NCBI RefSeq assembly: GCF_024506395.1
Contig: NZ_JANIBO010000001.1
Location: 1 to 64,000 of the forward strand
Length of the DNA: 64,000 nt
From: Cetobacterium sp. NK01
Lineage (GTDB): Bacteria > Fusobacteriota > Fusobacteriia > Fusobacteriales > Fusobacteriaceae
Direction of reading: 5' to 3'
How positions within the stretch are numbered: position 1 is the stretch's first letter; each line of letters opens with the position of its first letter. Positions 13,413 through 47,582 of the stretch are shown here, piece after piece. A model generated the notes under the pieces. It was not told where the DNA came from. It saw nothing but the letters and a program-made list of their open reading frames with translations, and searched no databases. The position numbers were made by a program, and so were the translations under genes.

Positions 13413-13415
13413 TAG

Positions 13416-13706: not shown

Positions 13707-13718
13707 TTTAAGTTAACA

Positions 13719-13744
13719 GTCCAAAATATCAAGATATTTTAGAC
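13719..13744. repeat. Left candidate serine-invertase crossover site (26 bp)
   Basis: Two 12-base arms, GTCCAAAATATC and GATATTTTAGAC, flank a central AA. The arms are inverted repeats of each other except at one position per arm. The site matches the one at 43954-43979 at 25 of 26 positions when inverted. The flank GTTAA.TTAA (left side here) is also shared. It lies 33 bases before the first gene of the surface operon. Confidence 0.75.
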
Positions 13745-13777
13745 CTTAAAAATGATTGTATGAGAGGGGATGAATAA

Positions 13778-14494
13778 ATGAGTTTAAAAAAATTAATATC
13801 AATATTCTTTTTGATAAGCAACTTTATCTTTGCTTTAGAAATACAACCAACTATGTTTGAACAAAGAATTGATGGTTCAGGTGGTTATAGAGAATTTATT
13901 GTTTCTAATAATACAAATTCAACTCTTAGATACAAGCTAACTATATTTCCTGGGAGTAAAAAAGATAGAGATATGAGTAAATGGACTGAGGTTTCTCCTA
14001 AAATTTTAACAATAAAACCTGGAAGAAATGGTATATTTAAAATATTTGTCCAAACTCCTAAAGAGATATCTGATGGAGAGTATGATTATACTTTAAGTTT
14101 AAAAACTATGGATTTGCCTAAACTACCTGGAGAAACTGATAAAATAGCATCTGCTGCAAAATTAAATTTTGATTTTAGACTAAACTTTATTGGATATGCA
14201 GGAGATTTAAATCCTGATATTGATTTTATCAACCCTGTTGTTTCAACTAATGCTAATGGTAAAACTGTTATTAGCGGAACTATTGTTAATAAAACACCTA
14301 AAAGAGGGATATACTGTGCTGTCAACGTGATTAGTGGTGAAAATTCTTTGAATTATTCTGAGATCAGAGTTCCAGTAAATGGAGAAAAACAATTTTCTGT
14401 TACACTAGAGCCGAACGTTAAAAAATCTGATATTACAGGAATAACAATACGAAATTTAGAAAATAGTGACATTATTCTTAAAAAACCAATTTAA
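13778..14494 (+). CDS. Periplasmic pilus-assembly chaperone-like protein 1
   Basis: Exported Ig-fold protein of 238 residues, predicted to hold and deliver pilin subunits in the periplasm. A signal peptide of about 20 residues ends near FIFALE. The N-terminal domain has the chaperone-type pattern: the opening strand IQPTMFEQRIDGSGGYREFI, VSNNTNSTLRYKL, WTEVSPKILTIKPG, then KIFVQTPKEISDGEYDYTL, matching the FGS-strand layout of fimbrial chaperones. A second beta domain follows. It is clearly homologous to the second chaperone at 15901, with about the same length (usual chaperones are 230-250). It is the first gene of the operon, directly ahead of the two pilin-like genes, with a GAGGGGATG ribosome region. 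Sequence similarity to PapD itself is remote, so the call rests on the pattern and the operon. Confidence 0.7.
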   Translation: MSLKKLISIFFLISNFIFALEIQPTMFEQRIDGSGGYREFIVSNNTNSTLRYKLTIFPGSKKDRDMSKWTEVSPKILTIKPGRNGIFKIFVQTPKEISDGEYDYTLSLKTMDLPKLPGETDKIASAAKLNFDFRLNFIGYAGDLNPDIDFINPVVSTNANGKTVISGTIVNKTPKRGIYCAVNVISGENSLNYSEIRVPVNGEKQFSVTLEPNVKKSDITGITIRNLENSDIILKKPI

Positions 14495-14516
14495 GTATCA
14501 AACTAGAAACGTTATT

Positions 14517-14534
14517 AAGAAGGGGAACCTTTTT
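14517..14534 (+). promoter_or_regulatory. Leader hairpin with GGAA loop before pilin 1
   Basis: AAGAAGG and CCTTTTT (one G-U pair) close a GGAA tetraloop 39 bases before the ATG. The same hairpin precedes pilin 2. A role in mRNA processing, stability or attenuation is inferred. Confidence 0.55.
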
Positions 14535-14572
14535 GATATATAAAATACAAGAAAAACTTAGGAGGTAACAAA

Positions 14573-15109
14573 ATGAAAAAACTATTATTCGGTTTATTAG
14601 CATTATCAGCAGCTACATTCGCTGCTAACCCTGGAACAGCAACTTCCGCAGATATGCAAATACAAGCAACACTAGCTATAGTAGATGCCACAGATAAGTT
14701 AGTTATAGAAGAACTTACTGGCGCAGGAACTTGGCGAGTAGTTTCAGCAATAGTTTCTTTTGATCATGGTACAGTAGCCAAAGGCTCAACAACAACTCCT
14801 ATTCCAACACTTCAAAGAAGCTTTAGAGTTAGAAAGCTTAATACTACTGGAGTCGATAACTTGACAGGAACAGTTGAAATCGCTTTAGATGGAAATAAAA
14901 CAGGTATATCTGATGGAAGCTTAGAGTCAGGACCTAATAAAATTAATCATACTTTCAGATTTACTCCAACTGTTACTGTTCCAGTAGCATCTACTGACAA
15001 ACTTGCTAAGTTTAATATTGAATCTAGTATTCCTAACACTCTTTCTGCTACTCAAGCAGTTGGAGTTTATAGCAGAGTTCAAACAGTTACAGTTGAATTA
15101 AAGCCATAG
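14573..15109 (+). CDS. Major pilin-like secreted subunit 1
   Basis: Secreted 178-residue protein with a classic signal peptide (FGLLALSAATFA, cleavage before ANPG). The mature part is small, beta-rich, threonine/serine-rich and free of cysteine. It ends in the hydrophobic strand YSRVQTVTVELKP, as expected of a fimbrial subunit. It is a tandem paralogue of the next gene: signal peptides are identical and the first 30 mature residues nearly so, while the centres diverge. It lies between two chaperone genes and ahead of the usher, has an AGGAGG ribosome site, its own leader hairpin and its own terminator, all consistent with high expression. Assignment as the shaft subunit is inference. Confidence 0.7.
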   Translation: MKKLLFGLLALSAATFAANPGTATSADMQIQATLAIVDATDKLVIEELTGAGTWRVVSAIVSFDHGTVAKGSTTTPIPTLQRSFRVRKLNTTGVDNLTGTVEIALDGNKTGISDGSLESGPNKINHTFRFTPTVTVPVASTDKLAKFNIESSIPNTLSATQAVGVYSRVQTVTVELKP

Positions 15110-15125
15110 TAATTTCTTTAAATTT

Positions 15126-15155
15126 AAGGAGAACTACAACTCTGTTCTCCTTTTC
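15126..15155 (+). terminator. Terminator after pilin 1
   Basis: AAGGAGAAC at 15126-15134 pairs with GTTCTCCTT at 15144-15152, then T-rich. It is nearly identical to the terminator after pilin 2; read-through must feed the downstream genes. Confidence 0.8.
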
Positions 15156-15242
15156 TTTAAGCAAATTAGAATCAAAGATAGATTTAAAAAATAATGATAT
15201 TTTTCTAAAAACTAATTTCAATATGTAACTAGATATATTCTT

Positions 15243-15260
15243 AAAAAGGGGAACCTTTTT
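15243..15260 (+). promoter_or_regulatory. Leader hairpin with GGAA loop before pilin 2
   Basis: AAAAAGG and CCTTTTT form a perfect 7-bp stem with a GGAA tetraloop, 40 bases before the ATG. It is the duplicate of the element before pilin 1. Confidence 0.55.
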
Positions 15261-15299
15261 GTATATAAGAAACATAACAAAAATTTAGGAGGTAACAAT

Positions 15300-15821
15300 A
15301 TGAAAAAACTATTATTTGGTTTATTAGCTTTATCAGCAGCTACGTTCGCTGCTAACCCTGGAACAGCAACTTCTGCAGATATGCAAGTACAAGCAAGATT
15401 AGCTATAGTAGATGCTACAGATAAATTAGTTATCGAAGAACTAAATGGTATCGGGAATTGGGGAGTAGTTTCATCAGTAGTTTCTTTTGATCATGGTTCA
15501 GTAACTAAAGGAACAACAATAGTTCCTAATCCAACGCTTTTAAGAAAATTTAGAGTTAGAAAACCTAATTCTACTGGAGGTAATTCCTCGTTAGGAACAG
15601 TTGCAGTTACTTTAGATGGAAACAATACAGGAACATCTACTGGAACTTTAACTTCAGGAGCTAACTCAATTCCCCATACTTTTAAATTTACTTCAGCTCC
15701 TGTAGCAGTTAGTAACATTGCTAATTTTGATATAGAATCTATGATACCTACTCTTGCTGCAGATAAAGCAGTTGGAATTTATAGTAGAGTTCAAACAGTT
15801 GAAGTTAAAGTTACTCCGTAA
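15300..15821 (+). CDS. Major pilin-like secreted subunit 2
   Basis: Secreted 173-residue paralogue of subunit 1, sharing the signal peptide, the ANPGTATSADMQ start, the VSFDHG..TKG motif, the RKFRVRKPN motif and the C-terminal strand YSRVQTVEVKVTP. The variable centre (about residues 85-150) differs in sequence and length, like antigenic variants. The whole unit of leader hairpin, gene and terminator is duplicated, so it arose by tandem duplication. Position before the second chaperone and usher supports a role as pilus subunit. Confidence 0.7.
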   Translation: MKKLLFGLLALSAATFAANPGTATSADMQVQARLAIVDATDKLVIEELNGIGNWGVVSSVVSFDHGSVTKGTTIVPNPTLLRKFRVRKPNSTGGNSSLGTVAVTLDGNNTGTSTGTLTSGANSIPHTFKFTSAPVAVSNIANFDIESMIPTLAADKAVGIYSRVQTVEVKVTP

Positions 15822-15837
15822 TAGTTTCTTTAAATTT

Positions 15838-15870
15838 AAGGAGAACGAAAGTTCTGTTCTCCTTTTTTTT
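15838..15870 (+). terminator. Terminator after pilin 2
   Basis: AAGGAGAAC at 15838-15846 pairs with GTTCTCCTT at 15856-15864, followed by a T run. Confidence 0.8.
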
Positions 15871-15900
15871 AAGGAAATTAAAACAAGGGGGGATTTTTTT

Positions 15901-16620
15901 ATGTTAAAAAATATTTGTTTAATCTTTTTTTCCATTGCTTTAAATTTAGCCGCGTATGTAAATATATATCCGGTTTCTTTTGACAAAGCAATTGATGGGA
16001 AAGGAAGTGGTCAAGAGTTTACACTGTACAACAAAACAAACAAGGCACTCAGATACAATATCTCACTAAGTGACGATAGATTTCAAACAAATAGCATGAA
16101 GAATTGGGTTGAGTTTTATCCTAAAAATATAACAGTTAAACCTGGTAAAAGTGAAAAAATTAAAATGTATATAAAAGCGCCTAAAAATACTCCTAAAGGA
16201 GAATATTTAGCTACAGTTGAAATAAAAGAAAATATATTACCTAATTTAGAAAAAAAAGTATCTCAAAACAACATACAATTATTAACTCATTTAAAAATGG
16301 ATATTGTTGGATATGTAGGAAATTTAAAACCAATATATAAAATTGATAACTTTTCTTACAATATTCAAGAAAATACTCTCTCTGTTAAAGGAACTATTAA
16401 AAATAGTGGTGATAGAAGAGGAAGAGTAGCTCTAATCCTATCTAATGGAAAAAATAAATATAACTATAAACTTGGAAATTTAAAACTTAACAAGGGTGAA
16501 AGTATTAATATCTCAAAACTTTCTCACAACATTAAAGATCAAAAACTACCTAAAAATTTTAATAAACTTATTTTGAAAGATGAAGATAGCGGTCATATTC
16601 TTTCTGAAATCTCTTTATAA
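15901..16620 (+). CDS. Periplasmic pilus-assembly chaperone-like protein 2
   Basis: A 239-residue exported Ig-like protein homologous to the chaperone at 13778. The signal peptide ends near LNLAAY. The chaperone-type pattern is visible: YVNIYPVSFDKAIDGKGSGQ, LYNKTNKALRYNI, WVEFYPKNITVKPGKSEK, MYIKAPKNTPKGEYLATVEI. The ATG at 15901 is set by AAGGGGGG 8 bases upstream; an in-frame start at 15754 would run through the previous gene and its terminator. Two chaperones in one operon suggest separate clients, for example the shaft pilins and the tip or minor subunits. Confidence 0.7.
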   Translation: MLKNICLIFFSIALNLAAYVNIYPVSFDKAIDGKGSGQEFTLYNKTNKALRYNISLSDDRFQTNSMKNWVEFYPKNITVKPGKSEKIKMYIKAPKNTPKGEYLATVEIKENILPNLEKKVSQNNIQLLTHLKMDIVGYVGNLKPIYKIDNFSYNIQENTLSVKGTIKNSGDRRGRVALILSNGKNKYNYKLGNLKLNKGESINISKLSHNIKDQKLPKNFNKLILKDEDSGHILSEISL

Positions 16621-16661
16621 GTTTACTCTAGTTAATTTAAAAATGGAGGTGTATCGTTCAA

Positions 16662-19280
16662 ATGTTTAAGAAAATTCTGACTTTTTTTTTACTTTCAGTT
16701 AGTATTTTTTCAGCAGAATACACATTGGAAGAGCTAAATAAATTAAAGGAGTTAAACTACATTTCTCAAGAAGACTATGAAATTTTTAAAAATGAGCTAC
16801 TTGGTACAAGCGAAGGAGAGATGTTGTATTCTTTAAAAGTTAACGACCTAAAAGTTAGTAATATTTATCCAATACTTCAGAGAGATGGTAAAACATTTTT
16901 TTCTATTATATCTCTTTTTAATAGTATCGGCTTTACAAACTATAGTGTCTTAAGTGGCATTTTAACTTTCAAATTAGGAGTTGATCTTAGAGAAATAACT
17001 ATAAATAGTAATAACAATACTATAAAAGGAATTGATTCTCTAAACTCTATAGAAGATAATTTAATAGTTGAAAATAATGATTTTTACCTAGAAGACAATC
17101 TATTTAAAGAAGTTTTCCTAAAAAATTATATCATTGACTCTGAAGAGTACAAAGTTGCTATGGATTTATCTTTTGAAACTCCTCAAGAGATAAAAATGTA
17201 CCTTAGAAATGTACAAGATGGTGTAATAGATTCTCAAAATGCCGGTGAAATTATTTTTGGAAGCAAACGTTCCCTCTTTGATCTAGGAAATGTTGGACTT
17301 AATATCGAAGGATATACTGAAAAAACTAATGGAGATAAAAAGTTTAATACTGATTGGATTGGAACAGTTGAATATCAAGGTGGACTTCTTTATGGAGAGT
17401 TCACAGTTAACTATGATTTTAGAAATAATGAATTAAATGACACTTCTTTATATTATCCTGATATTTGGAAGCAACACTCTCTTGAAATTAGAAATAATAG
17501 ATCAGGTGATAATTCTAGAGAATGGGAAATGACATTTAGAAAAGAACGAGGTTTCTTCAGAATTGGAAAAAACTTTGTAATTAGAGAAAATGTCCCTATT
17601 GGAAGTAAAGTAGAGCTTCTTTATTTAGGCTTTCCTATAGATGTAAAAGAGGCTGATAATGGCATTGTTGAATTTGATAACCCTGAAATTCAGGAGGATA
17701 GACAATATGTGTTAAGAGTTTATACACCAGATGGGAAAATTTATAACATTGATATCAATACTACAAGTGATTATAATCAACAGAAAAAAGGGGAAATTGA
17801 GTATGATATAAGTGTTAGAGAAAATCATGAATACAGTAAATTAGAAACAAATGCAAATATATACTACGGTATTACAGAAAACTTCACTGGTGGTTTCAAT
17901 TACTCTAGAACTGTAGAAACAGACGATAATAAAATAGGATATTTGGATACAATTAGAGGAGAGGCTGTTTATTCTAATACTGCTTTCTCATTTCCTTATA
18001 CTTTAGTTCTAGGAGGAGACAAAGCTCTTAGTAGTTATAAAAATACTGAAAATTATAGCACTAAAGATAGATACGGTTATGATTATACAGGACAAGTCGA
18101 TATTAAAGATTTTAGATTCATTATATCTCAACAACATTTCGGAAAATATTTTGAAGAAAAAAAATCTGAAGATTATTCAATTATTTATAGTCCATTTGGA
18201 AGCAACTTTCAAATAAATTACAATTGGGAAAAAACTAAGTATTATGAAGGGGATAGAGATAATTATGAATCAATTGGGTTTAACGCAAGTAAAACTTTTA
18301 AAGAGCTTTTAGTTAGTTTAGACTATCAAAAATCTTTAAATAGTAAGGATACTTATGGCTTAAATCTTTATTATAACGGTTTAAAAAATTACAATGTACA
18401 ACTTAGAAATACTTGGAATGAAGATGGTCGGGATTTTGAAACTACTTTAGCTGTAAGTAATAAAAATATGTTTGATATTTTAGATTATACGGTTGAATTT
18501 TCCTATAGTGATAAAGAAAAAGAGAAATTTACATTTAGTATTAGCTTAGATTATGATAGTTGGTTTAAAACAGATATCCATGTTAGCGAAAGTTGTCAAA
18601 TATATTCAGTTGGTGTCGATAAAGTTTTTGACTTAAGAAATCTTTCTAATCCAATTGAAACTATTGATAGTTCAAGGGTTAAAATAACGACATATTTAGA
18701 TGAAAATAATAATGGAGTTAGAGAAAAACATGAAAAAGTTGTAGATAATGTCGCCGTTAAACTAAGAGAGCAAGAGATTATTACAGATGAAAATGGTGTA
18801 GCTTGGTTCCATGGACTTCCTAATGATGTGACATATGATTTAAAACCAACAATTAGAAAACCTAACTATACAATGGGGGATACTAAACTTAAAGTTTTAG
18901 GTAGACAAGTTGGAACAATTGAAGCTGAGCTTCCGATAAAACCTATGTTAAACCTTACAGGAATTCTTTTATTTGATAACTCTCTAAAGTTATCTTCTAG
19001 TGAAAAAGAAGGCATCTTAGAAAATACACTTATAAAAATAATAAACTCAAAAGGAAAACTTGTTGAGTATATAAATCCTGAATTAGATGGTTCTTTTGAA
19101 ATAAATGGACTTTTCAGCGAAAAATATACTTTAGAAATTCTTTATACAGGAACTGATTATACAATAAATGGAGTTGCTGAAAATATCCAGTTAAGTTATA
19201 AGGAGGATAATAACTATCTTGTTCAATATAAAAATGGTCAATTTAGTCTTGTTAAAAATAAAAAGGAGGAGAAAATATGA
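16662..19280 (+). CDS. Usher-like outer-membrane assembly protein
   Basis: Exported 872-residue protein, the size of fimbrial ushers (800-900). A signal peptide ends near IFSAE. A periplasmic N-terminal part (to about residue 190) precedes a beta-barrel-like region rich in alternating aromatic strands. The segment VPIGSKVELLYLGFPIDV, then NGIVEFDNPEIQEDRQYVLR and VYTPDGKIYNI (about 310-365), follows the usher pattern after the plug. The C-terminal part has an EF-hand-like LDENNNGVREKHE and TDENGVAWFHGLP, as in carboxypeptidase-regulatory-like ends of CS1/alpha-type ushers. It would secrete chaperone-bound subunits across the outer membrane. Its stop overlaps the next start (ATGA). Similarity to known ushers is weak and needs a profile search. 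Confidence 0.65.
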   Translation: MFKKILTFFLLSVSIFSAEYTLEELNKLKELNYISQEDYEIFKNELLGTSEGEMLYSLKVNDLKVSNIYPILQRDGKTFFSIISLFNSIGFTNYSVLSGILTFKLGVDLREITINSNNNTIKGIDSLNSIEDNLIVENNDFYLEDNLFKEVFLKNYIIDSEEYKVAMDLSFETPQEIKMYLRNVQDGVIDSQNAGEIIFGSKRSLFDLGNVGLNIEGYTEKTNGDKKFNTDWIGTVEYQGGLLYGEFTVNYDFRNNELNDTSLYYPDIWKQHSLEIRNNRSGDNSREWEMTFRKERGFFRIGKNFVIRENVPIGSKVELLYLGFPIDVKEADNGIVEFDNPEIQEDRQYVLRVYTPDGKIYNIDINTTSDYNQQKKGEIEYDISVRENHEYSKLETNANIYYGITENFTGGFNYSRTVETDDNKIGYLDTIRGEAVYSNTAFSFPYTLVLGGDKALSSYKNTENYSTKDRYGYDYTGQVDIKDFRFIISQQHFGKYFEEKKSEDYSIIYSPFGSNFQINYNWEKTKYYEGDRDNYESIGFNASKTFKELLVSLDYQKSLNSKDTYGLNLYYNGLKNYNVQLRNTWNEDGRDFETTLAVSNKNMFDILDYTVEFSYSDKEKEKFTFSISLDYDSWFKTDIHVSESCQIYSVGVDKVFDLRNLSNPIETIDSSRVKITTYLDENNNGVREKHEKVVDNVAVKLREQEIITDENGVAWFHGLPNDVTYDLKPTIRKPNYTMGDTKLKVLGRQVGTIEAELPIKPMLNLTGILLFDNSLKLSSSEKEGILENTLIKIINSKGKLVEYINPELDGSFEINGLFSEKYTLEILYTGTDYTINGVAENIQLSYKEDNNYLVQYKNGQFSLVKNKKEEKI

Positions 19281-19819
19281 AAAAAATTATAGCACTAATA
19301 TGTTTTTCCATAATACTTGGAAAATTATCATATTCAAATGACCAAAATACTACTACAGAAACTCCTCCTTCTGTAAGTATTCCAATGATTCCAATGATTC
19401 CTGCTACACCAACAACAGACACAACTGTTGATGAAGAAGAAAATATAACTGAATGGCAGTTAGAAAAAATCTCTACATTTCATTTAGAAACAAAGGTTAA
19501 TGTTCTGGTTCCATTAGAAATTATAACTGATGTTGAAATAAAGGCTTTAGTTATAGATAATGCTAAAGTTACAGTTCCTTTTGAATTAGAGATGAATAAA
19601 GCTCCTGATAAAAAAGATTTTTATAAACTTAACTACAGTGAAACAGAGATAGATATTGATAGCGATGGGGTTATTGATACAAAGATTTATTCTCCAACTT
19701 ATATAAATGAAAAAGTTGTAAAAGATAATTACTTAGTTATAGACGGAACAAATATATCTAAAGAGGGTGTTCATAAAAAAAGAGTTTATATTACAGTAGA
19801 ACTTAAGGAGGAGATTTAA
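19277..19819 (+). CDS. Secreted minor subunit-like protein A
   Basis: Secreted 180-residue protein with a signal peptide (IIALICFSIILGKLSYS) and a low-complexity Pro/Thr stretch at about 28-55 (repeated IPMIP). A beta-rich domain with the acidic IDIDSDGVIDTK motif, possibly calcium-binding, follows. Its C-terminal strand KKRVYITVELKEEI resembles the ends of the two pilins (RVQTVTVELKP), which suggests the same donor-strand fold. The start overlaps the usher stop by 4 bases, so it is translationally coupled. Likely a minor or adaptor subunit. Confidence 0.55.
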   Translation: MKKIIALICFSIILGKLSYSNDQNTTTETPPSVSIPMIPMIPATPTTDTTVDEEENITEWQLEKISTFHLETKVNVLVPLEIITDVEIKALVIDNAKVTVPFELEMNKAPDKKDFYKLNYSETEIDIDSDGVIDTKIYSPTYINEKVVKDNYLVIDGTNISKEGVHKKRVYITVELKEEI

Positions 19820-19824
19820 TAGTT

Positions 19825-20412
19825 ATGAAAAAAATATTATTTTTAGTTTCCATACTATCAACAATATCCTTTGCAGAGATTAAAGTTAGAATTGTTGAAC
19901 CTCTTAAATTTAGAGATATCAATAGTACAGAGATTGGACCAAATCAAGTTCTAGCAACATCTCAAATAGAAGTTTATACAGACAATAAAGAGGAAGACAT
20001 TGGAAAAAGAGTTGTATTTAAATATCCTGATTATCTTTTAATGACCAATAGAAAAAAATGGATAAAGGTAAAAAAAATAGGCATGGAAGTAAAAGAGAAT
20101 GAGATTATCCTAGAAAGGGAAAGGGTTCCTATAATTTTTTATGCTATTTTAGATAAAAGAGAATTAGATAAGGGTGAAAATATAGAAACAATCGAAGGGG
20201 AATATAGTGGAAGCTTTCCTGTTAACTTCTCTGTTTATAGAAGAAAGGATAACTTCCCTGTAACACTTCCAGAACTTGCACCTGCTGACACACCTATGAT
20301 TTTACCTATTTTTCCACACGAAGATGAAATTAACAAACCTACAATTCTTCCATCTTTTCCACATGAAGAGATACATAGACCAGTAACACTTCCTTTAAAT
20401 CATAAAGAATAG
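19825..20412 (+). CDS. Secreted minor subunit-like protein B with proline-rich tail
   Basis: Secreted 195-residue protein with a short signal peptide ending LSTISFAE. A beta-rich domain (IKVRIVEPLKFRDINSTEIG) extends to about residue 140. The tail is a repeated proline-rich motif, ILPIFPHEDE then ILPSFPHEE then VTLPLNHKE, reminiscent of an extended surface-exposed or periplasm-spanning linker. A GGAGGAG site precedes it. Position in the operon suggests a structural or anchoring subunit. No family recognised. Confidence 0.5.
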   Translation: MKKILFLVSILSTISFAEIKVRIVEPLKFRDINSTEIGPNQVLATSQIEVYTDNKEEDIGKRVVFKYPDYLLMTNRKKWIKVKKIGMEVKENEIILERERVPIIFYAILDKRELDKGENIETIEGEYSGSFPVNFSVYRRKDNFPVTLPELAPADTPMILPIFPHEDEINKPTILPSFPHEEIHRPVTLPLNHKE

Positions 20413-20422
20413 GGGGATATTT

Positions 20423-20746
20423 ATGAAAAAAAAAATTTTATTGGGATTATTTATTATTTTTACTAATCTATTTTCCGCAGAAAGTAAGCTAGAGTATAAG
20501 GTAGATTATTCTCAGGATAATTTTATTGTTGTTACTATTTCAAAGGCAAGTGATACTTCAATTTTAAAAGATTATCATATTATTCAAAGAGAAGAGAGTC
20601 TAGAAGAAATTGCTGAAAAATATAAAGTTTCAATTGAAGATTTAGAAAAAATAAATAACATTAGTAGATTTGATAATTTAAAAAAGGGTAAACTTATCTA
20701 TTTAAAAGAAAAACAAAGGGGGAAAGACAGTGAAAATAAAAAATAA
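20423..20746 (+). CDS. Exported LysM-domain protein
   Basis: A 107-residue exported protein with a signal peptide (LLGLFIIFTNLFSA) and one LysM domain at about residues 55-100: YHIIQREESLEEIAEKYKVS, then IEDLEKINNI and LKKGKLIYL. LysM binds peptidoglycan, so this protein may anchor the assembly to the cell wall in the periplasm. It is unusual in a chaperone-usher-type operon. The gene overlaps the next by 17 bases. Confidence 0.7.
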   Translation: MKKKILLGLFIIFTNLFSAESKLEYKVDYSQDNFIVVTISKASDTSILKDYHIIQREESLEEIAEKYKVSIEDLEKINNISRFDNLKKGKLIYLKEKQRGKDSENKK

Positions 20747-23700: not shown

Positions 23701-23972
23701 GTTCAAATTTAATTTACGAGCTAGAAAGAGATGGTGGTTCAAAAGGTAGTTACTACAATGATTTTAAACTTTATCAAAACGGAGATAAAGTCTCAGAAAA
23801 TTTTGCAACAACTGATATTTGGTTAGGAAAAGAAAGCATTCCTAATAAGAATGAACCTAACAAGCGAACAATCGATTTAAACGGTATACTTAAAAGCATT
23901 AGTGATAAGGCCCCCGTTGGAAATTATACAAATACAGTTAATATAGTGGTTTCTCTTGAGGAGGCTTTATGA
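20730..23972 (+). CDS. Large two-domain putative tip adhesin
   Basis: Exported 1080-residue protein. GTG start at 20730, with GGGGGAAAG upstream; signal peptide to about SASHF. Two long homologous units are visible, at about residues 170-540 and 560-930. They share the markers YGLLEDNRWENGEITI and YGLIKNKDWRTDRVSI, THIPPLDLEAFYDNAGSSIK-type and YINIPPFEPEAYYDNVNSSI-type motifs, and the following NIDTLSFW/NIDTMNFW. The C-terminal 130 residues (KVLDFGKILKGKFNANEAKT to VGNYTNTVNIVVSLEEAL) look like a pilin domain. That fits a tip adhesin carried by a chaperone-usher fibre, with lectin-like or other binding domains ahead of it. Ligand unknown. The stop overlaps the next start (ATGA). Confidence 0.55.
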   Translation: MKIKNKLTLTFLFVSFLNISASHFSPDNEIKTIQTLPRKPQGATLDIEVTKVKTEKINGFIDEKNKKIKIDFSDKKNENAKKLSLEEKQYDVFVFDDPNDISFFSNTGTKDRRSILKLPKLYDYNLDESNNNIISVNYENKPEALYVGIRDKNNNEIKKIYSVDTMITPVAFTVENSIILASPFAVSNSLTKAYPMNKVGEFYAETSPGGNEVNAWKAKGVLGSAAIMGNYGLLEDNRWENGEITITANGNELPAYLFGDGIKKIERIKVSNNSSYLAFKNSAGTEVSPSKPAEREITGITLFLSQYESPSKHLDVGFPAIGGWNRKQQTIMLSIKNSYNQEQKTYIHIPPLDLEAFYDNAGSSIKIDKTEGNIDTLSFWKNTASVTAPTYEHEHQGAQITLSDKENAENFSEDFKGQLVYLGTIKTKDNIPAPYIQKVEGNTSEIIYAGGSFKLTDEITGETISGNVLFGENASNATSTPLKLAEVITAKKVYLLLQKNTLKNGTFTITAKNGTLPGERVSILTITQSNSIAPAFENIIDKLTITLTKIPEPFKVKNVINLSNPVALTGTSTNLTSSQGIYPLNISGSFTAKNYSGGDPVGYKGVIANQGYIEGGTLGSYGLIKNKDWRTDRVSISGEINGIRMGFSPEQYDSAIKGVQLIQNLEPRGPYFQFYGTSLNNVIVPSAEKKWLPSSSFFYATTPFISQSQSGGSTYLSFGFAKWNYKLNRLLLKYSLRSVDGNTFDRFQETYINIPPFEPEAYYDNVNSSIKIDGTNQNIDTMNFWSSSSNTASYNHNVNGKAIHSGAEIEKVLENNSSNTMIELGTIRARDLFYASDSQGDILKFYSSGTPITLIDSTNSENKINGQIIIKVNNGEYSEYNAKNLITQNATIYLKLSEALSESKSGDFTLTAGMNTNILRLGLKASANIQSDIYDDIISKITLKISPPNLSFIVDYQPKVLDFGKILKGKFNANEAKTRINITYDNEKLNGSNLIYELERDGGSKGSYYNDFKLYQNGDKVSENFATTDIWLGKESIPNKNEPNKRTIDLNGILKSISDKAPVGNYTNTVNIVVSLEEAL

Positions 23973-24484: not shown

Positions 24485-24547
24485 AAGAGCAACATTACAA
24501 TAATGATTTTAATATCCAAAATATTAACCTGCCAAAAAGTTTAGCTG

Positions 24548-24580
24548 AAACCTAGAATATAAAAATCTAGGTTTTTTAGA
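24548..24580 (+). terminator. Terminator separating the chaperone-usher operon from the giant-protein gene
   Basis: AAACCTAGA at 24548-24556 pairs with TCTAGGTTT at 24566-24574, followed by TTTT. It lies 63 bases after the last stop and 32 bases before the next ATG. Confidence 0.8.
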
Positions 24581-24611
24581 CTTTAATAATATATAAATTA
24601 GGAGTAAAAAA

Positions 24612-35840: not shown

Positions 35841-37695
35841 CAGTAGAAAACAAAGGTGCTGTAGCTGTTAAAGGATTAGTTATCACTGACGCAATTAAAG
35901 ATATCACAACAGAGTTTGCGGATGGAAGTAATGCACAAGCTTTCGCATCTTGGACTATAGACGGTGTAGTATCTACAGAAGATTTAAGCACAACAATCAA
36001 CTTGGATAAAGACGAAAGTAAAGTATTTACAATAGCAGGAACACTTAAACCGGGAGCAATAGGAACAGTAGCAAATACAGCAAGCTATACATACAAAACA
36101 AATGCTCCTGTTATCTCTAACGAAGTTATTTCAGTCCCTGCAGATCCAGCAACTGGAGATATCAAAATCAAAAAGCAGTTGATAAAGCAACATATGTTTC
36201 AGAGGATACTATCACATATACTGTAACAGTAGAAAACAAAGGTGCTGTAGCTGTTAAAGGATTAGTTATCACTGACGCAATTAAAGATATCACAACAGAG
36301 TTTGCGGATGGAAGTAATGCACAAGCTTTCGCATCTTGGACTATAGACGGTGTAGTATCTACAGAAGATTTAAGCACAACAATCAACTTGGATAAAGACG
36401 AAAGTAAAGTATTTACAATAGCAGGAACACTTAAACCGGGAGCAATAGGAACAGTAGCAAATACAGCAAGCTATACATACAAAACAAATGCTCCTGTTAT
36501 CTCTAACGAAGTTATTTCAGTCCCTGCAGATCCAGCAACTGGAGATATCAAAATCAAAAAAGCAGTTGATAAAGCAACATATGTTTCAGAGGATACTATC
36601 ACATATACTGTAACAGTAGAAAACAAAGGTGCTGTAGCTGTTAAAGGATTAGTTATCACTGACGCAATTAAAGATATCACAACAGAGTTTGCGGATGGAA
36701 GCAATGCACAAGCTTTCGCATCTTGGACTATAGACGGTGTAGAATCTACAGAAGATTTAAGCGCAACAATCAACTTGGATAAAGACGAAAGCAAAGTATT
36801 TACAATAGCAGGAAAACTTAACTTAGGAGCAATAGGAACAGTAGCAAATACAGCAAGCTATACATACAAAACAAATGCTCCTGTTATCTCTAACGAAGTT
36901 ATTTCAGTCCCTGCAGATCCAGCAACTGGAGATATCAAAATCAAAAAAGCAGTTGATAAAGCAACATATGTTTCAGAGGATACTATCACATATACTGTAA
37001 CAGTAGAAAACAAAGGTGCTGTAGCTGTTAAAGGATTAGTTATCACTGACGCAATTAAAGATATCACAACAGAGTTTGCGGATGGAAGCAATGCACAAGC
37101 TTTCGCATCTTGGACTATAGACGGTGTAGAATCTACAGAAGATTTAAGCGCAACAATCAACTTGGATAAAGACGAAAGCAAAGTATTTACAATAGCAGGA
37201 AAACTTAACTTAGGAGCAATAGGAACAGTAGCAAATACAGCAAGCTATACATACAAAACAAATGATCCTGTTATCTCTAACGAAGTTATTTCAGTCCCTG
37301 CAGATCCAGCAACTGGAGATATCAAAATCAAAAAAGCAGTTGATAAAGCAACATATGTTTCAGAGGATACTATCACATATACTGTAACAGTAGAAAACAA
37401 AGGTGCTGTAGCTGTTAAAGGATTAGTTATCACTGACGCAATTAAAGATATCACAACAGAGTTTGCGGATGGAAGCAATGCACAAGCTTTCGCATCTTGG
37501 ACTATAGACGGTGTAGAATCTACAGAAGATTTAAGCGCAACAATCAACTTGGATAAAGATGAAAGCAAAGTATTTACAATAGCAGGAAAACTTAACTTAG
37601 GAGCAATAGGAACAGTAGCAAATACAGCAAGCTATACATACAAAACAAATGATCCTGTTATCTCTAACCAAGTTATTTCAACTCAACAATTAGGA
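33828..37695 (+). repeat. Array of ten tandem DUF11 repeats of about 387 bp
   Basis: Unit starts (GGAGATATC) are at 33828, 34221, 34608, 34995, 35382, 35769, 36155, 36541, 36928 and 37315. Spacing is 387 bases except 393 for the first and 386 for the sixth and seventh. Units 3-5 look base-identical. Units 8-10 form a second subgroup marked by GVESTEDLSATI and GKLNLGAIG in place of GVVSTEDLSTTI and GTLKPGAIG. Confidence 0.95.
35785..36387 (+). pseudogene. Out-of-frame middle segment of the giant DUF11 gene
   Basis: In intact units the join reads ATC AAA AAA GCA GTT. Unit 6 (from 35769) reads AAAGAGCAG with one base lost plus two substitutions, and unit 7 (from 36155) reads AAAAAGCAG with one A lost. 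Each moves the frame by -1, so unit 6 is encoded in a third frame and the correct frame for the rest opens at 36175. The short frames here are not separate genes. Confidence 0.85.
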
Positions 37696-40221
37696 GATCC
37701 AAATAGCCTAAAAATTATTAAAACTGTAGATAAGGATACTTTTGACAATGGAGACAGCAATATTCCATTAACATACACAATTAGATTACAAAATGATGGA
37801 CCTACTAATTTCACAAATGTTTCAATAAAAGATTTTATTTCTGAAATTTCAGGAATAAATTCAAAAGGCGAAATTGTAAATCCATTTAACGGTAAGTGGA
37901 ATATAGAAATTTCTTCTTATCAAGGAGTATTCGGAGCATTCTTAGAAAAAGATTTAGATCCAGATAAAGATTTAAATATAAATTTATCTATATTAAAAGG
38001 CGGATTTATTGAATTTAAAATAAAGACAGAAGTTATAGCTGGATTTGTAGATGATATAACTAATAGAGTTTATTTATATCTAGACAATAAAGAGATTAAT
38101 AGCTCAGAAACTACAACTCTTTCTGGAGCACCATTACTTGCTATTACGAAATCTGTTATAACTGAATCAGAAGCTGTTTTACTTTCAAAAAATACTGAGA
38201 TTAAGACAATTGGTAATGGCGATAAACTTATATATGTTACAAAAATTGAAAATAACTCTAATATTACAGCTCATAATGTTAAAGTAGTTTCAGATTTATA
38301 TAATTTAAAGGTTAAATCGGGTGATAATTTCTTAGATTTAGATAAAATTAAATTGTTAAAAATTTTAAGTTCTACAGGAGATTCTGTTACTTATGAGATT
38401 GGAACTACAAGTGGAGAAATTATCATTGATAACATATCTCCTAATTCATATGTTACTATCGAAGTAGAAGGATTTGTAAATGATACTGCACATTTAACAA
38501 TAGGAGAATTAATAACTTCAGTTTCAACAGCTCAATATAATCAAAAAAATGAAGGTAATAATGGTAGAGCTTTATTTTCTGTTGGATTAGGACCTATTAT
38601 TAAAAGTAATGATGTCATTTTAACTCCTATAACTCCAAAATTAGAGTTAGTAAAAGAAATTAGTGTTCAAAACTCCGATAAAACGATTTATCCAGGAGAC
38701 GCGATAGAATATACTCTTTCTATTAAGAATAATACAAATTTAAATATATATAAAACACCTGAAGGAAAATCAGTAACTATAACTGATGCAATAAATAAAA
38801 TTACTTCAAGTTATGAAACAAAAGTATTTACTGATATAAAAATCCAGAGTGTTTTAGCTAATGGAAATCCTCTTGATTATACTGGAAATATATCAGATAC
38901 TGATGATACTATAACTCTTTCATATATACCTAAACAAAGCGAGGTTATTGTAACAATCTCTGCTAAAGTAAGTGAAAATGCTATATTTAAAGCAGAAGAG
39001 GAAATAACAAATATATTCACAACAAGTTACGATAATCTTGAAGCTGAAGTTTCTGTAAAAGCAAATATGGAAAATGCAATAATAATTAATAAAACAACAC
39101 CTATAAAAGAGACATCTGTTGGTAAATTTGTTCCATATACAATAAGTGTAACAAATAACCAAAAGAATAATGCTAACAATATTTTCTTAAAAGATATACT
39201 TCCTGCTGGATTTAAATATCAAGAAGATTCAGCAATTTTAGTTGATTCTTCTGAAAATAAGGAAAAAATAAAAGTTGAAGGTGTTAGAACATTAAATATT
39301 GGACCATTTAGTGTAAAATCTGGAGAAACAGTAGAAATAACTTATTTAGCAAAAGTTTCTGTAGGAGTAGTAAATGGTAAATATATCAATAGAGCAGTTG
39401 CTATTAATTCAGGTGGAAATACAATTTCAAATGAATCTACTGCTAAAGTATATGTTATAGAGGACAAACTTTTCCAAACATCAACTATTCTTGGTAAAGT
39501 ATTTAATGACATTGATGGTGATGGATATCAAGATCCAGCTGAAGCTAGCAAAATAAAAATATATCATTCTAATGAAAAGCAACCAATATCAATAAAGAAA
39601 GTTCTTCCAGGAAGAAAAAGTTCAAAAGAGGATTTAAGTGAAAATACTGAAATAGTTTACTTAAAACTTGAATCTCCTGAAAAACTTCAAGATGTTAGAG
39701 TAACAACTGCTGAAGGAACTGATATAACAATTACAAAAGATGGAAAAGTTATTCAAAACCACACTGGACTTGTTAAAAATGGAATGTCTGGACAAAACAT
39801 TGTTGTTAACAGAAAAGTGATGAAAACTAAAGATAAAAAACCAGTTTATAAAAATGTAACAAATAAAGGTAAAGAAGCTGTTATAGCTTATTACGATATT
39901 CCTGAACAAATTGTTTATGTTGAAGTAATTACAATTATAAATACAGGAGTTCAAGAAGTTGGAATACCAGGAGTTAGATTAGCTACAGTTGAAGGACTAA
40001 TTATTGAAACTGATCAATATGGTAGATATCATATTCCTGAGGTTTCATCTAGTAAAGGTAAAAACTTTATAATCAAAGTTGATCCAACAACTTTACCTCA
40101 AGGTTTTGATTTTACTACAGAAAATCCAAAAGTTTTAAAACTTGGAAATGTACCTGTTAAAGCTAACTTTGGAGTAAAAAACAAAAATACTAAACTAAGC
40201 AACAATAAGGAGGGGAGATAG
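36175..40221 (+). CDS. Giant DUF11-repeat surface protein, C-terminal block
   Basis: The remaining 1348 codons of the giant protein. They cover repeats 7-10, then four to five diverged DUF11 units, then a C-terminal module: an SdrD-like LGKVFNDIDGDGYQDPAEAS segment, a charged region (about 39600-39900) and a final carboxypeptidase-regulatory-like beta domain (VGIPGVRLATVEG, TDQYGRYHIPEVS). The frame has no start codon at its upstream end; the first candidate start, a TTG at 36388, is just a leucine codon of the repeat. Whether this part is expressed depends on whether the two deletions are real. The next gene starts 3 bases after its stop, so they are one operon. Confidence 0.75.
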   Translation, partial: AVDKATYVSEDTITYTVTVENKGAVAVKGLVITDAIKDITTEFADGSNAQAFASWTIDGVVSTEDLSTTINLDKDESKVFTIAGTLKPGAIGTVANTASYTYKTNAPVISNEVISVPADPATGDIKIKKAVDKATYVSEDTITYTVTVENKGAVAVKGLVITDAIKDITTEFADGSNAQAFASWTIDGVESTEDLSATINLDKDESKVFTIAGKLNLGAIGTVANTASYTYKTNAPVISNEVISVPADPATGDIKIKKAVDKATYVSEDTITYTVTVENKGAVAVKGLVITDAIKDITTEFADGSNAQAFASWTIDGVESTEDLSATINLDKDESKVFTIAGKLNLGAIGTVANTASYTYKTNDPVISNEVISVPADPATGDIKIKKAVDKATYVSEDTITYTVTVENKGAVAVKGLVITDAIKDITTEFADGSNAQAFASWTIDGVESTEDLSATINLDKDESKVFTIAGKLNLGAIGTVANTASYTYKTNDPVISNQVISTQQLGDPNSLKIIKTVDKDTFDNGDSNIPLTYTIRLQNDGPTNFTNVSIKDFISEISGINSKGEIVNPFNGKWNIEISSYQGVFGAFLEKDLDPDKDLNINLSILKGGFIEFKIKTEVIAGFVDDITNRVYLYLDNKEINSSETTTLSGAPLLAITKSVITESEAVLLSKNTEIKTIGNGDKLIYVTKIENNSNITAHNVKVVSDLYNLKVKSGDNFLDLDKIKLLKILSSTGDSVTYEIGTTSGEIIIDNISPNSYVTIEVEGFVNDTAHLTIGELITSVSTAQYNQKNEGNNGRALFSVGLGPIIKSNDVILTPITPKLELVKEISVQNSDKTIYPGDAIEYTLSIKNNTNLNIYKTPEGKSVTITDAINKITSSYETKVFTDIKIQSVLANGNPLDYTGNISDTDDTITLSYIPKQSEVIVTISAKVSENAIFKAEEEITNIFTTSYDNLEAEVSVKANMENAIIINKTTPIKETSVGKFVPYTISVTNNQKNNANNIFLKDILPAGFKYQEDSAILVDSSENKEKIKVEGVRTLNIGPFSVKSGETVEITYLAKVSVGVVNGKYINRAVAINSGGNTISNESTAKVYVIEDKLFQTSTILGKVFNDIDGDGYQDPAEASKIKIYHSNEKQPISIKKVLPGRKSSKEDLSENTEIVYLKLESPEKLQDVRVTTAEGTDITITKDGKVIQNHTGLVKNGMSGQNIVVNRKVMKTKDKKPVYKNVTNKGKEAVIAYYDIPEQIVYVEVITIINTGVQEVGIPGVRLATVEGLIIETDQYGRYHIPEVSSSKGKNFIIKVDPTTLPQGFDFTTENPKVLKLGNVPVKANFGVKNKNTKLSNNKEGR

Positions 40222-40223
40222 AT

Positions 40224-43200
40224 ATGAAGAAATCAATGAAAATTAAACTCTTTATACTTGCTTTGTTATTAGTTCCATATAAAAATATAAATGGACAAAT
40301 AGATATCAATAACCTTGAAGTTGTTTCAGAAGTTCAAAGTGAAACAATAAAAGATAAAGAAGAGGATAAGTCTACTTTAGAAGACAATCAAGTTTATCTA
40401 AATGAAGGTGTTATATATACTGTAACTGATCCTCTAGCTATATCTTCAAAATTAAACATCTCTTCAAAGGGAGTTACCTACATTAATAATGTAGGTAACC
40501 TTGAAGATGTTAAATTCTTTTTATATACTAACTATGATAATTTTATAGATAGATATGAGATTTTAATTTATGATTCTTTAAACTCCTTAAATAACCCTAT
40601 AGATGTTATAAAAGGAGAAAAAATATCTATTGATGAACCGATAATTTGGAGCTACGATAATAGCAAAATGGGTAAAATAAAAACAGGAGATACACTGTAC
40701 TATATTTTAAAAGTATTTGGCAAAAATGGTAATTTTGATGAAACTTTTCCCAAAGCAATTAAAGTTGAAAAATCATCATCATTTCTACCAGAAGATTTAA
40801 ATTTAGATACTAAAATAAAAGAAAGTATCTACGCTGAATCAAACATAAAAACAAAAAATATAATGGTTTCAGGAGCTAATATTAAGTTCTATGGCCGTGG
40901 TTTATATGACACAAAAGAACTTAAAATAGATAATCAAACAGTTGAAATTGATGAGCAAGGAAATTTTTTATATGAAACATTAAGTAATGAGCAAGGAAAA
41001 ATTTATAGCATTGATGTTACAACTGAAGAGGATAGTATAGAAAATTATAATCTAACAGTTTTTTATCCTGAAAACTATGAATTTTTAGTTGGAATAGCAG
41101 ATTTTTATCTTGGTAAAAATACAGTCGATGGAAGTACAGCTATTTTAGAAAATGACCCTAATTATCAAGAAGATTTTTTTAACACTGGAAGGTTAGCGTT
41201 TTACTATAAAAAAATATATGATAAATATAGAATAACTGCTCAAGCTGATACTTGGAGTAAAGAGATTAAGCATATGTTCTCTGACTTTAATGAAAAAGAT
41301 CCTCAGAAAATATTTAGAAAAATTGATAGAGATGATATTAAATTTAATTATGGTGATGATTCTACAATGTACAGTGATGTAGAAACTGAAGGAAAAATGT
41401 ATTTAAGAGTAGATTGGGATAAATCTCAAGTTTTATGGGGAAGTTACAACACTGGTGTAACTGGAACTAGATTTGCTGAATATAATAGAAGTTTGTACGG
41501 AGCTAGAGCTGAATATAATAGTCTTTCTACAAATACTTTTGGAGATTCAATAGATCACATTGTAGTTTTTGGTTCTGAACCAGATACATCTTACAACAGA
41601 GATCAGTTTTTAGGAACAGGTGGAAGCATCTATTACCTAAGTAAAAGTGATATTGTTGTTGGAAGTGCAAAGTTAACTGTAGAATTAAGAGATAACCAAA
41701 CAGGAAGGCTTCTAAATAAAGCATCTTTATCAGAAGGACAAGATTATGAGATCAATGAATTAACAGGTAGAGTTTTATTGGAAAAACCTTTAAGTCAAGG
41801 AAGTTTCAATCTTACTTCAGATGAAATTATAAAAGATTCTCCATCTGGATCTTATAAATACTATTTAGTTGTTGATTATGAATATTATAATTTAGAAAAC
41901 AATAGTGATGATTATGCTGGAGGAGTAAGAGCTAAAAAATGGATTACAAATAATCTTGCTTTAGGTGGAACTTATATTAAAGAAAAAAGAGATTCTAATA
42001 TTGAAGATTACGATTTAAAAAGTGTAGATTTAACATATAAACACTCTAATGGAACATACTTAATTGGGGAGTTTTCAGAAACAGAGGGAAATCAGCTAAC
42101 AAAAGATAGTAACTGGTTTTCTCCAGATGGAGGATTTGATTTTGTTGAGCAACCTTCTATTAGAATAGGAGATAGCGGTAGAGCTTACTATATAGAAACA
42201 GGGCTTCAACTTTCTGATTACAATCCAAGTTTCAGTAATTCTGATAAAATAAATTTCTGGTATTCTAAAAAAGAAAAAGGATTTTCTACTGCAAGTGAAA
42301 CAAGCGGTACAGCTAAAGAGGAATATGGAGCTGAAATCTCGTATCAACAATCTGAAACTTTACGTTATGAAGCAAAAGGGTCTGTCTATACAGAAAATAC
42401 ATATGACGATGAGTCTAATGATTTTTCAGGAAAAAATACACAAAAAGAGGTTTCCATTGCAGCTATAAAAGATCTGACAGATAGATTAACTGTGGGATTA
42501 GAAACTAAATACATAAATGATAAAGAACAAGATCAAACTCTTGCTATTTTAGAAAATGAAGATATTGATTCTGGAGAAGCTATCTTGGTAGGTACAAAAA
42601 TTTCTTATGACTTAACAGAGCAAACAGAGGTATATACAAAATTACAAGGTACAGCAATGAAAAAAGATGGTTACGGAGAAAATAATTTAATCTCTTTGGG
42701 AACTGTATCACAACTAACAGAAAAAGTATTTGTTGAAGCTGAAGGAAGTACTGGTAATAGAGGACAAGCAGTCGATTCTAAAGTTTTATATAAGTATGAT
42801 GAAAACTATGAAATTTATGCAGGATATGCTTTAGAAAATGAAGATGATTTAGATTCTGCTATAACTTTTGGACAAAAATATCAAATTAGTGATAGAACTA
42901 GTTTATATCAAGAAAATCAATTTGTTACTAATAACTCTGAAAAAGGAGTTTTACAAACTTATGGAGTTGATTTTAATTTAAATCAAAAGGTAACTTTATC
43001 ATTACTTTATGAAAATGGAAAAGTTGAAGTTTTAGAAGGAGATGTTACAAGAAATAGTATAAGTGGAATGTTAAAATATACAAATAATAACTTTACATCA
43101 AAGCACAGATTAGAATTTGCTAAAGATACTGGAGCTGAAACAAGAGAATTATATGGTACTACTAATAGATTTAAATGGACACCAACTAAAGAATATACAA

Positions 43201-43811
43201 TATTTGGAGTTGGAAACTATGTTTTAGGGAAAGGAGACTTAGGACTAGTTAGTTATAATGAGTCTGGAAACATTATTGAAGATAGAAATCCTGATAATGA
43301 TGATTCGAAATATTTAGAGTTAGGTTTAGGATTTGCTTATAGACCAATCTATAACGATCGTTTAAATCTGATAACTAAATATTCATACATCTATGATGAT
43401 GGTTCTAGAACACAACTAAATAGAAATTATTCTGAAAAAGCAAATATAGTATCTTTTGAAGGAATTTATGATCTAACTAAGAGATTAAGTATTTCTGGAA
43501 AATATGCTTTTAGAAAAGAAGAGGTTAAATTGTATATGGGTGACGATTGGTATTCAAATACTTTAAATCTTTACGCAGTTAGATTATCTTACGAAGTAAT
43601 CAAAAAATGGGATCTTTTTGGAGAATACCATTGGTTACAAGGTAAAACTGATGGAGATTTAAAACATGGAGCAATTGTTGGAATCTATAGAGAGATTAAT
43701 GAAAATTTAGAATTTGGAGTAGGGTACAATTTTACAGAGTTTACAGATGATCTAACAAATTTAGATTACAGAAGTAAAGGATGGTTTATTAATTTAATTG
43801 GTAAGTTTTAA
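40224..43811 (+). CDS. Large outer-membrane beta-barrel partner of the DUF11 protein
   Basis: Exported 1195-residue protein: signal peptide (LFILALLLVPYKNINGQ), a periplasmic N-terminal region with Ig-like beta domains to about residue 290, then a long barrel-like part of alternating aromatic strands ending in GWFINLIGKF. The terminal Phe is the classic BAM-complex signal. A domain near 465-540 (GGSIYYLSKSDIVVGSAKL, LRDNQTGRLL, GQDYEINELTGRVLL) also occurs in other very large DUF11-associated outer-membrane proteins. The 3-base gap from the giant gene implies co-translation. It is a candidate membrane anchor or secretion partner for the stalk. No catalytic motif seen. Confidence 0.65.
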   Translation: MKKSMKIKLFILALLLVPYKNINGQIDINNLEVVSEVQSETIKDKEEDKSTLEDNQVYLNEGVIYTVTDPLAISSKLNISSKGVTYINNVGNLEDVKFFLYTNYDNFIDRYEILIYDSLNSLNNPIDVIKGEKISIDEPIIWSYDNSKMGKIKTGDTLYYILKVFGKNGNFDETFPKAIKVEKSSSFLPEDLNLDTKIKESIYAESNIKTKNIMVSGANIKFYGRGLYDTKELKIDNQTVEIDEQGNFLYETLSNEQGKIYSIDVTTEEDSIENYNLTVFYPENYEFLVGIADFYLGKNTVDGSTAILENDPNYQEDFFNTGRLAFYYKKIYDKYRITAQADTWSKEIKHMFSDFNEKDPQKIFRKIDRDDIKFNYGDDSTMYSDVETEGKMYLRVDWDKSQVLWGSYNTGVTGTRFAEYNRSLYGARAEYNSLSTNTFGDSIDHIVVFGSEPDTSYNRDQFLGTGGSIYYLSKSDIVVGSAKLTVELRDNQTGRLLNKASLSEGQDYEINELTGRVLLEKPLSQGSFNLTSDEIIKDSPSGSYKYYLVVDYEYYNLENNSDDYAGGVRAKKWITNNLALGGTYIKEKRDSNIEDYDLKSVDLTYKHSNGTYLIGEFSETEGNQLTKDSNWFSPDGGFDFVEQPSIRIGDSGRAYYIETGLQLSDYNPSFSNSDKINFWYSKKEKGFSTASETSGTAKEEYGAEISYQQSETLRYEAKGSVYTENTYDDESNDFSGKNTQKEVSIAAIKDLTDRLTVGLETKYINDKEQDQTLAILENEDIDSGEAILVGTKISYDLTEQTEVYTKLQGTAMKKDGYGENNLISLGTVSQLTEKVFVEAEGSTGNRGQAVDSKVLYKYDENYEIYAGYALENEDDLDSAITFGQKYQISDRTSLYQENQFVTNNSEKGVLQTYGVDFNLNQKVTLSLLYENGKVEVLEGDVTRNSISGMLKYTNNNFTSKHRLEFAKDTGAETRELYGTTNRFKWTPTKEYTIFGVGNYVLGKGDLGLVSYNESGNIIEDRNPDNDDSKYLELGLGFAYRPIYNDRLNLITKYSYIYDDGSRTQLNRNYSEKANIVSFEGIYDLTKRLSISGKYAFRKEEVKLYMGDDWYSNTLNLYAVRLSYEVIKKWDLFGEYHWLQGKTDGDLKHGAIVGIYREINENLEFGVGYNFTEFTDDLTNLDYRSKGWFINLIGKF

Positions 43812-43828
43812 TTAATAAACTTGAATTA

Positions 43829-43878
43829 AATAGGCTGTTTATGGTACATTATATATACTTAAACAGCCTATTTTTTAT
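43829..43878 (+). terminator. Terminator of the giant-protein operon
   Basis: AATAGGCTGTTTA at 43829-43841 pairs perfectly with TAAACAGCCTATT at 43860-43872, followed by T6. Confidence 0.9.
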
Positions 43879-43953
43879 TATTTTTATTTGATTTTTTTAA
43901 AATATCCTGCTATTCTATAAGATGAGTCAAAAAAGTGTTCTTTTATAAAATGA

Positions 43954-43979
43954 GTCTAAAATATCTTGATATTTTTGAC
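43954..43979. repeat. Right candidate serine-invertase crossover site (26 bp)
   Basis: Arms GTCTAAAATATC and GATATTTTTGAC flank a central TT. The inverse complement of the left site (13719-13744) differs at a single position. Ten of the next 12 bases to the right (CGTTAATTTAAA) also match the inverted left flank. A TTGACC -35 box for the recombinase gene overlaps its right edge. Confidence 0.75.
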
Positions 43980-47556: not shown

Positions 47557-47582
47557 TAAATTAATTTTTAGGAGTGTTAATT

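Follow-up and report, generated by a model that had tools for sequence, protein, structure and literature searches.

Can a DNA segment of some 30 kb be inverted as a unit between two short recombination sites, and what kind of enzyme would do it? The question is raised by a surface locus of Cetobacterium sp. NK01, which was analysed within a window of 64,000 nucleotides (positions 1 to 64,000 of contig NZ_JANIBO010000001.1); all coordinates refer to this window, and the genes and sequence elements described are on its forward strand. An invertible segment of 30,209 bp (13745..43953), carrying a chaperone-usher-like pilus operon and a giant DUF11-repeat gene, is bounded by a left site at 13719..13744 (GTCCAAAATATC-AA-GATATTTTAGAC) and a right site at 43954..43979 (GTCTAAAATATC-TT-GATATTTTTGAC), the TT core of the latter reading AA on the minus strand. 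Genes for two serine recombinases, R1 and R2, lie beyond the right site. In two species of one genus, the segment lies in opposite orientations between these sites. Judged from comparative sequence analysis, it is very probably a site-specific inversion switch whose enzyme is of resolvase descent.

The first-pass annotation of the window had described the sites as 26-bp palindromes with 2-bp cores, and reading of the sequence bore out their positions, arms, and AA/TT cores. Alignment gave exactly the identities that had been claimed: 25 of 26 positions when one site is inverted, 22 of 26 in direct orientation. The similarity noted between the flanks of the two sites was seen right beside the sites but was weak farther out. 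When the 64 kb were scanned for inverted repeats, the longest was an exact match of 22 bp lying within both sites, and the runner-up measured 16 bp. A scan of the whole 3,095,946-bp genome with the site pattern, allowing up to 3 mismatches, returned exactly two places, the sites at 13719 and 43954; a reversed control pattern gave no match in the same genome at the same threshold. In 98 Fusobacteriota whole genomes, scanned with a slightly looser pattern than the source genome, zero-mismatch matches were limited to two here, two in G002 (the genome of another species of the same genus), and one in G016. A pattern scan of IMG/VR gave no match to the site.

The two sites of G002 are 11 kb apart and bracket the orthologous operon (usher 89% identical, other genes about 41-94%), with the segment reversed relative to the orthologous flanks. 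In the window, the operon end lies beside the recombinase gene and the operon start beside the gene at 12941; in G002, the arrangement is reversed, with the start at the recombinase gene (an 89.5% identical ortholog) and the end toward the 12941 ortholog. The four flanks of each locus were aligned separately. The left-outer flank of the window paired with the outer flank of G002 site 2 (83% over 419 bp), the left-inner flank with the inner flank of site 1 (74% over 574 bp), the right-outer flank with the outer flank of site 1 (86% over 667 bp), and the right-inner flank with the inner flank of site 2 (z 6.9, 0/500 shuffles; alternative pairings z 1.0 or less). Since all four flanks are paired in swapped order, the point of exchange is inside the 26-bp sites. 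Both G002 junctions are covered by one 90.6-kb contig, and the window belongs to a contig of 1.9 Mb. A search of related genomes for the same sites with the segment inverted, suggested at first pass, was thus positive. The accompanying claim that the whole segment flips as one unit stands in so far as the inversion between the species occurred exactly at the sites; the contents of the segment differ, since that of G002 (11 kb) ends after a MORN gene, and that of the window (30 kb) adds the DUF11 gene and a gene for a 1195-aa protein. The pairing of the right-inner flank is due to a conserved block just inside the right site (43903..43953). This noncoding stretch of about 50 bp, kept in G002 despite differing preceding genes, holds a half-site, GTCAAAAAA, at 43926, 28 bp inward of the right site, and the half-site or the whole block may be an accessory element.

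The palindromes lie near two gene starts, the right one 49 bp ahead of the R1 start codon, and could on this account be operators for a transcription factor (a Mga-like regulator, helix-turn-helix (HTH) proteins, or R1 regulating itself) instead of recombination sites. The first-pass annotation had considered that the palindrome might prove to be a widespread operator. With only two sites in 3.1 Mb and a near-unique occurrence in 98 genomes, it is not widespread; moreover, the inter-species inversion breakpoint falls inside the palindromes, and Tn3-type relatives carry the same 26-bp form within a res-like site. An operator function in place of recombination is therefore very improbable.

The first-pass annotation had pointed to a Hin-sized serine recombinase with a complete active site 49 bp beyond the right site, and this gene (44029..44631) is indeed intact. 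Its 200-aa product, R1, has conserved active-site motifs (Pfam Resolvase, E 2.6e-29) and is a serine recombinase of the Tn3-resolvase lineage and the probable invertase. A second serine recombinase gene, not mentioned at first pass, is located at 46951..47556; its product, R2 (Pfam), is 63% identical to R1, also with conserved active-site motifs, and the recognition helices of the two proteins are very similar (GICKQTYYNYKKRY versus CISKQSYYNYIKKY). Both genes are present and intact in G002 as well, and dN/dS values of 0.09 (R1) and 0.11 (R2) indicate purifying selection. The pair co-occurs with a site pair in both genomes that have one (2 of 98). In a scan of genome contigs from which near records were left out, R1 as query found only two distant relatives, from Bacilli.

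In a phylogenetic tree, R1 and R2 form one clade (support 100/100) that stands beside the TnpR proteins of Tn3 transposons from the same family (93/96), away from a separate clade of Gin and SJ46 Pin (100/98). These TnpR proteins are 57% identical to R1 and adjoin PF01526 transposases; alignment revealed an extra loop that R1, R2, and Tn3-type TnpR have in common. The best matches in the PDB were gamma-delta resolvase (97 bits) and Tn3 resolvase (92 bits), with Gin-type proteins at 56 bits. Residues 47, 48, and 51 (Hin numbering) are basic in Fis-dependent invertases and contact enhancer DNA (PMC3798978). In R1 they are E, S, and N and in R2 N, E, and E, meaning that there is no basic helix-B patch. 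A search for Fis in the genome matched just the HTH portions of two proteins, each of about 470 aa, and found no stand-alone Fis gene; HU-type genes number three. Membership of R1 in the Hin/Gin/Cin group, as had been proposed, was not upheld by these results. The analogy to Hin and Gin appears to fit the working mode of the system and not its ancestry, and Tn3-resolvase-derived invertase would be the better label. Complete-looking pairs of Tn3-type transposase and resolvase genes, the latter being the nearest relatives of R1 and R2 outside the switch loci, are present in G002 (L034:3196-6577) and G077 (L033:1-3308); TnpA was confirmed beside the resolvase by Pfam in both and by NCBIfam in G077.

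Palindromes of the form GT...AC were sought at lengths of 25, 26, 28, 33, and 34 bp. Upstream of the recombinases in G020 and in the Tn3 transposon of G002 (contig C27), a 26-bp site is followed by a 24-bp linker and a 33-bp site, an arrangement that resembles site I, linker, and site II of Tn3 res; a 33-bp site was also found in G077. At the switch loci of the window and G002, the 26-bp site stands alone at both ends, without the 33-bp accessory site. For the natural Tn3 resolvase, a bias of about a thousand-fold against inverted res sites has been attributed to the interwrapped synaptosome formed with accessory sites II and III (PMC9943657). Activated mutants of Sin that are independent of site II yield inversion and resolution products equally from pairs of lone site I (PMC2764113). 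Given lone 26-bp sites at the locus and lone-site-I inversion by activated Sin mutants, loss of the accessory sites is the simplest account of the invertase: a Tn3-type resolvase lineage seems to have lost these sites and to have become an invertase acting on lone copies of site I. Resolvases are built to refuse inverted sites, and here it was seemingly the removal of accessory sites that made one of them an invertase. As both site types occur naturally in one genus, the evolutionary step from resolvase to invertase is directly testable.

The resolvase ancestry and the res-like sites in relatives would also suit a Tn3-transposon relic, in which transposon insertions left R1, R2, and the sites behind and the inversion occurred via two relic res sites. 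However, no open reading frame (ORF) of TnpA size lies between R1 and R2, both recombinase genes are intact in two species with low dN/dS, and the 33-bp accessory sites are gone while both 26-bp sites are conserved. We give this explanation next to no credence.

According to the inversion-switch model, R1, possibly aided or biased by its paralog R2, would bind both 26-bp sites as dimers, cut at the 2-bp AA core, exchange strands, and religate, so that the 30,209 bp between the sites are inverted; the asymmetry of the cores and the inverted placement of the sites would make the segment flip. The enzyme would be a descendant of Tn3-family resolvases that retained the 26-bp crossover site (site I) and dispensed with the 33-bp accessory site. 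In the window, only 33 bp separate the left site from the first start codon (ATG) of the operon, and the promoter must therefore be outside the segment or overlap the site. At first pass, the best promoter candidates had been placed outside the segment. Their outside location stands, and they are now reduced to a single best candidate, an extended -10 element (TG-A-TATAAT; TGATATAAT) at 13547..13555, which was identified by consensus match alone, faces into the segment, and is 163 bp upstream of the left site. On the homologous outer flank of G002, TTGTAA-17-TATAAT is found 85 bp upstream of the site and points toward the operon 3' end. With the segment oriented as in the window, transcription from the external promoter near 13550 would cross the left site and enter the chaperone-usher operon (ON). 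Once flipped, the operon start would be beside the recombinase gene, pointing away, and the promoter would read into the 3' end of the segment (OFF). Because the promoter faces the operon start in the window and the 3' end in G002, the former, with promoter, site, and operon in line, appears to be in an ON-like and the latter in an OFF-like orientation. We infer that R1 catalyses the inversion, that flipping is reversible within one strain and turns the operon ON or OFF, that R2 plays a part, and that the DUF11 part is controlled as well.

Several observations weigh against such a switch. Promoter-like matches are equally common in shuffled AT-rich DNA, which makes a promoter assigned from sequence weak evidence. 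A terminator-like hairpin at 24536..24584 separates the DUF11 part of the segment from the pilus operon. In G016, a lone copy of the site occurs although no close homolog of R1 is present in the assembly. Finally, the comparison of orientations is between two species and is compatible with a single past event, each strain being known from its genome assembly in one orientation only. This last point would agree with a one-off inversion at the sites after the species split, since fixed, the recombinases serving otherwise or acting very rarely. An unused site pair should decay, however. The sites of each pair are 24-25/26 alike within the window genome and within G002, and their AA cores are identical; the synonymous divergence between the window and G002 loci is 0.5-1.5, against which the cores stayed the same and both recombinases remained under purifying selection. 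We therefore consider a one-off inversion unlikely, and prefer a site-specific switch. With respect to the lone site of G016, which is of another genus in the same family, the match is a perfect 26-bp site at L023:14136-14161, 20 bp from a contig end, and is near a transposase-like gene; contig ends at such sites would be expected where DNA flips.

In its working mode, the proposed switch is similar to the G segment of Mu with Gin, and to P1 Cin and Salmonella Hin. The gene for a small serine recombinase flanks the segment closely on one side (the distance to the start of the gene is 67 bp for gin, counted from the annotated G boundary of Mu, and 49 bp for R1, counted from the right site), the sites in the window and G002 are inverted 26-bp imperfect palindromes with an asymmetric 2-bp core, and, as in the case of Gin, a coding segment would flip relative to a fixed outside promoter. 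The invertible segments of Mu and P1 are a few kb long. R1 differs from Gin by its Tn3-resolvase kinship, outside the Gin/Pin clade, and no stand-alone Fis was found here; unlike in the Gin and Hin systems, where alternative gene ends or a promoter are moved, the cargo would be an entire operon, and a second recombinase gene is present. The Hin segment is about 1 kb (PMC3798978), versus 11-30 kb here. Tn3 TnpR/res shares with the switch sequence kinship, the extra loop, and a 26-bp crossover-type site, but the switch is without the 33-bp accessory site and without a transposase, and its sites are inverted, not direct. The beta recombinase is grouped with Sin-type resolvases. Sin is likewise a serine resolvase relative and is helped by HU (PMC2764113), three HU-type genes being available here. 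While Sin requires site II and direct repeats, inverted lone site I is the natural state at this locus.

Among phase switches, E. coli fim also serves a chaperone-usher pilus and has two recombinase genes at the locus (FimB/FimE). Its tyrosine recombinases flip a short promoter fragment, whereas serine recombinases would here flip the operon itself. At the sap locus of Campylobacter fetus, which encodes surface proteins, inversions of several kb take place around a promoter, and the system relies on long homologous repeats and RecA, in contrast to the short dedicated sites and dedicated recombinase described here. A literature search, with subscription papers mostly outside it, found nothing on invertible segments or serine-recombinase phase switches in Fusobacteriota, including Fusobacterium and Cetobacterium. 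If true, the switch moves the pilus operon in its entirety and not just a fragment with a promoter. At 30 kb it would be unusually large; a read-based survey considered inversions no longer than 5 kb (PMC5903667), and surveys with this limit would miss one of such size.

The first operon gene (13778..14494) codes for what is, by its predicted structure, a periplasmic chaperone of the FimC/PapD type (AlphaFold pLDDT 82; Foldseek FimC E 9.6e-10, CsuC E 1.4e-9). It is followed by genes for two secreted proteins (14573-15109 and 15300-15821), 70% identical, whose orthologs occupy the corresponding place in the operon of G002 and of other species; neither Pfam nor the PDB gave a match for them, and their operon position suggests that they are pilin-like. 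A second chaperone of 238 aa (15907..16620), starting at an internal ATG of the 15754 ORF, is homologous to the first and 85% identical in G002. The next product is an outer-membrane protein of 872 aa (16662..19280; 89% identical in G002), homologs of which are found in 30 of 61 family genomes. It is beta-rich, a usher profile search was negative, and the structure model was poor (pLDDT 58); we call it usher-like by operon context. The remaining genes (19277..24484; Pfam LysM, MORN_2) start at 19277, 19825, 20423 (LysM), 20730 (1080 aa, adhesin-like), and 23969 (MORN, lipoprotein-like), and are co-linear in G002.

The hairpin at 24536..24584 (-17 kcal/mol, z -4.3) lies between this operon and the DUF11 gene, and flipping, as a consequence, need not silence the DUF11 part. 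The giant DUF11-repeat surface protein (24612..40221; Pfam DUF11) is encoded in two frames, 24612-35840 and 36388-40221, which are probably one gene broken in a tandem repeat. This repeat, at 33822-37680, consists of a 387-bp unit present 10 times at 98% identity, and the reading frame changes at short runs of A near 35790 and 36170 inside it; the break could be a sequencing error or real variation or slippage. A 1195-aa outer-membrane-type protein (40224..43811) has homologs in 12 of 31 genomes, and these are encoded directly 3' of the usher operon in G006 and G009. Another terminator-like hairpin (43828..43873, z -4.9) is located at the segment 3' end.

Between the candidate promoter and the left site, a leader at 13573..13706 consists of 1.9 copies of a 69-bp unit (AAAAAAGGAAGAG plus a hairpin; TRF, 100% matches), the duplicated hairpin being AAAGTTTTCGGTATAAAACTTT. 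Similar leaders with AAAAAAAGGAAA precede other operons of the genus, and the leader might be a regulatory RNA element. Rfam gave only sub-threshold matches in the leader region (13253-13800).

On the right flank, R1 is followed by a small HTH protein (44649..44984; Pfam HTH_Tnp_1/HTH_28), whose homolog in G008 lies between the operon and an EAL gene, a transcription regulator of Mga/HTH_11 type (45046..46461; Pfam HTH_11, Mga), and a small winged-HTH protein, ArsR/MarR-like by Pfam (46588..46866). The regulator between R1 and R2 varies: in G002 the place of the Mga/HTH_11 and small winged-HTH proteins is taken by an RpiR protein (HTH_6 and SIS). In G006, G007, and contig C162 of G008, a divergent regulator of about 450-480 aa is upstream of the operon. 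Downstream of R2, an EAL-domain protein (47574..48317; Pfam EAL, E 8e-45) is a putative phosphodiesterase of cyclic di-GMP (c-di-GMP); EAL-domain genes are also located at the border of the locus in G005, G008, and G002.

A c-di-GMP-I riboswitch (RF01051) was found just 5' of the homologous operon in G005, G006, G007, G008, and G009 (usher 53-57%), and also at a paralogous usher operon of the source genome (contig C2); the positions in these five related species, plus the one near the C2 operon, are L082:14542-14617, L083:5385-5460, L084:12327-12403, L085:12474-12552, L088:222-297, and L089:12918-12993. There is none at the switch operon in either the window or G002, suggesting that a DNA switch may replace c-di-GMP riboswitch control at the pilus locus. 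A loss of the riboswitch at the very time of the origin of the switch is made less likely by the nearest switch-less relative, C162 of G008 (usher 65%), an 8.4-kb contig that contains no riboswitch and no site. The fuller proposal, that a deregulated and duplicated Tn3-type resolvase pair flips a whole 11-30 kb adhesion locus ON and OFF at inverted lone site-I copies, and that this heritable switch may replace the riboswitch there, we hold to have an even chance of being right. When the remaining usher loci in the genus and the family were scanned for inverted repeats, no comparable pair of short sites was found. In G012 (L096:3727-19773), two usher operons are oppositely oriented and share inverted repeats with exact matches of up to 71 bp; these long repeats are the two paralogous operons themselves, and homologous inversion between them is possible.

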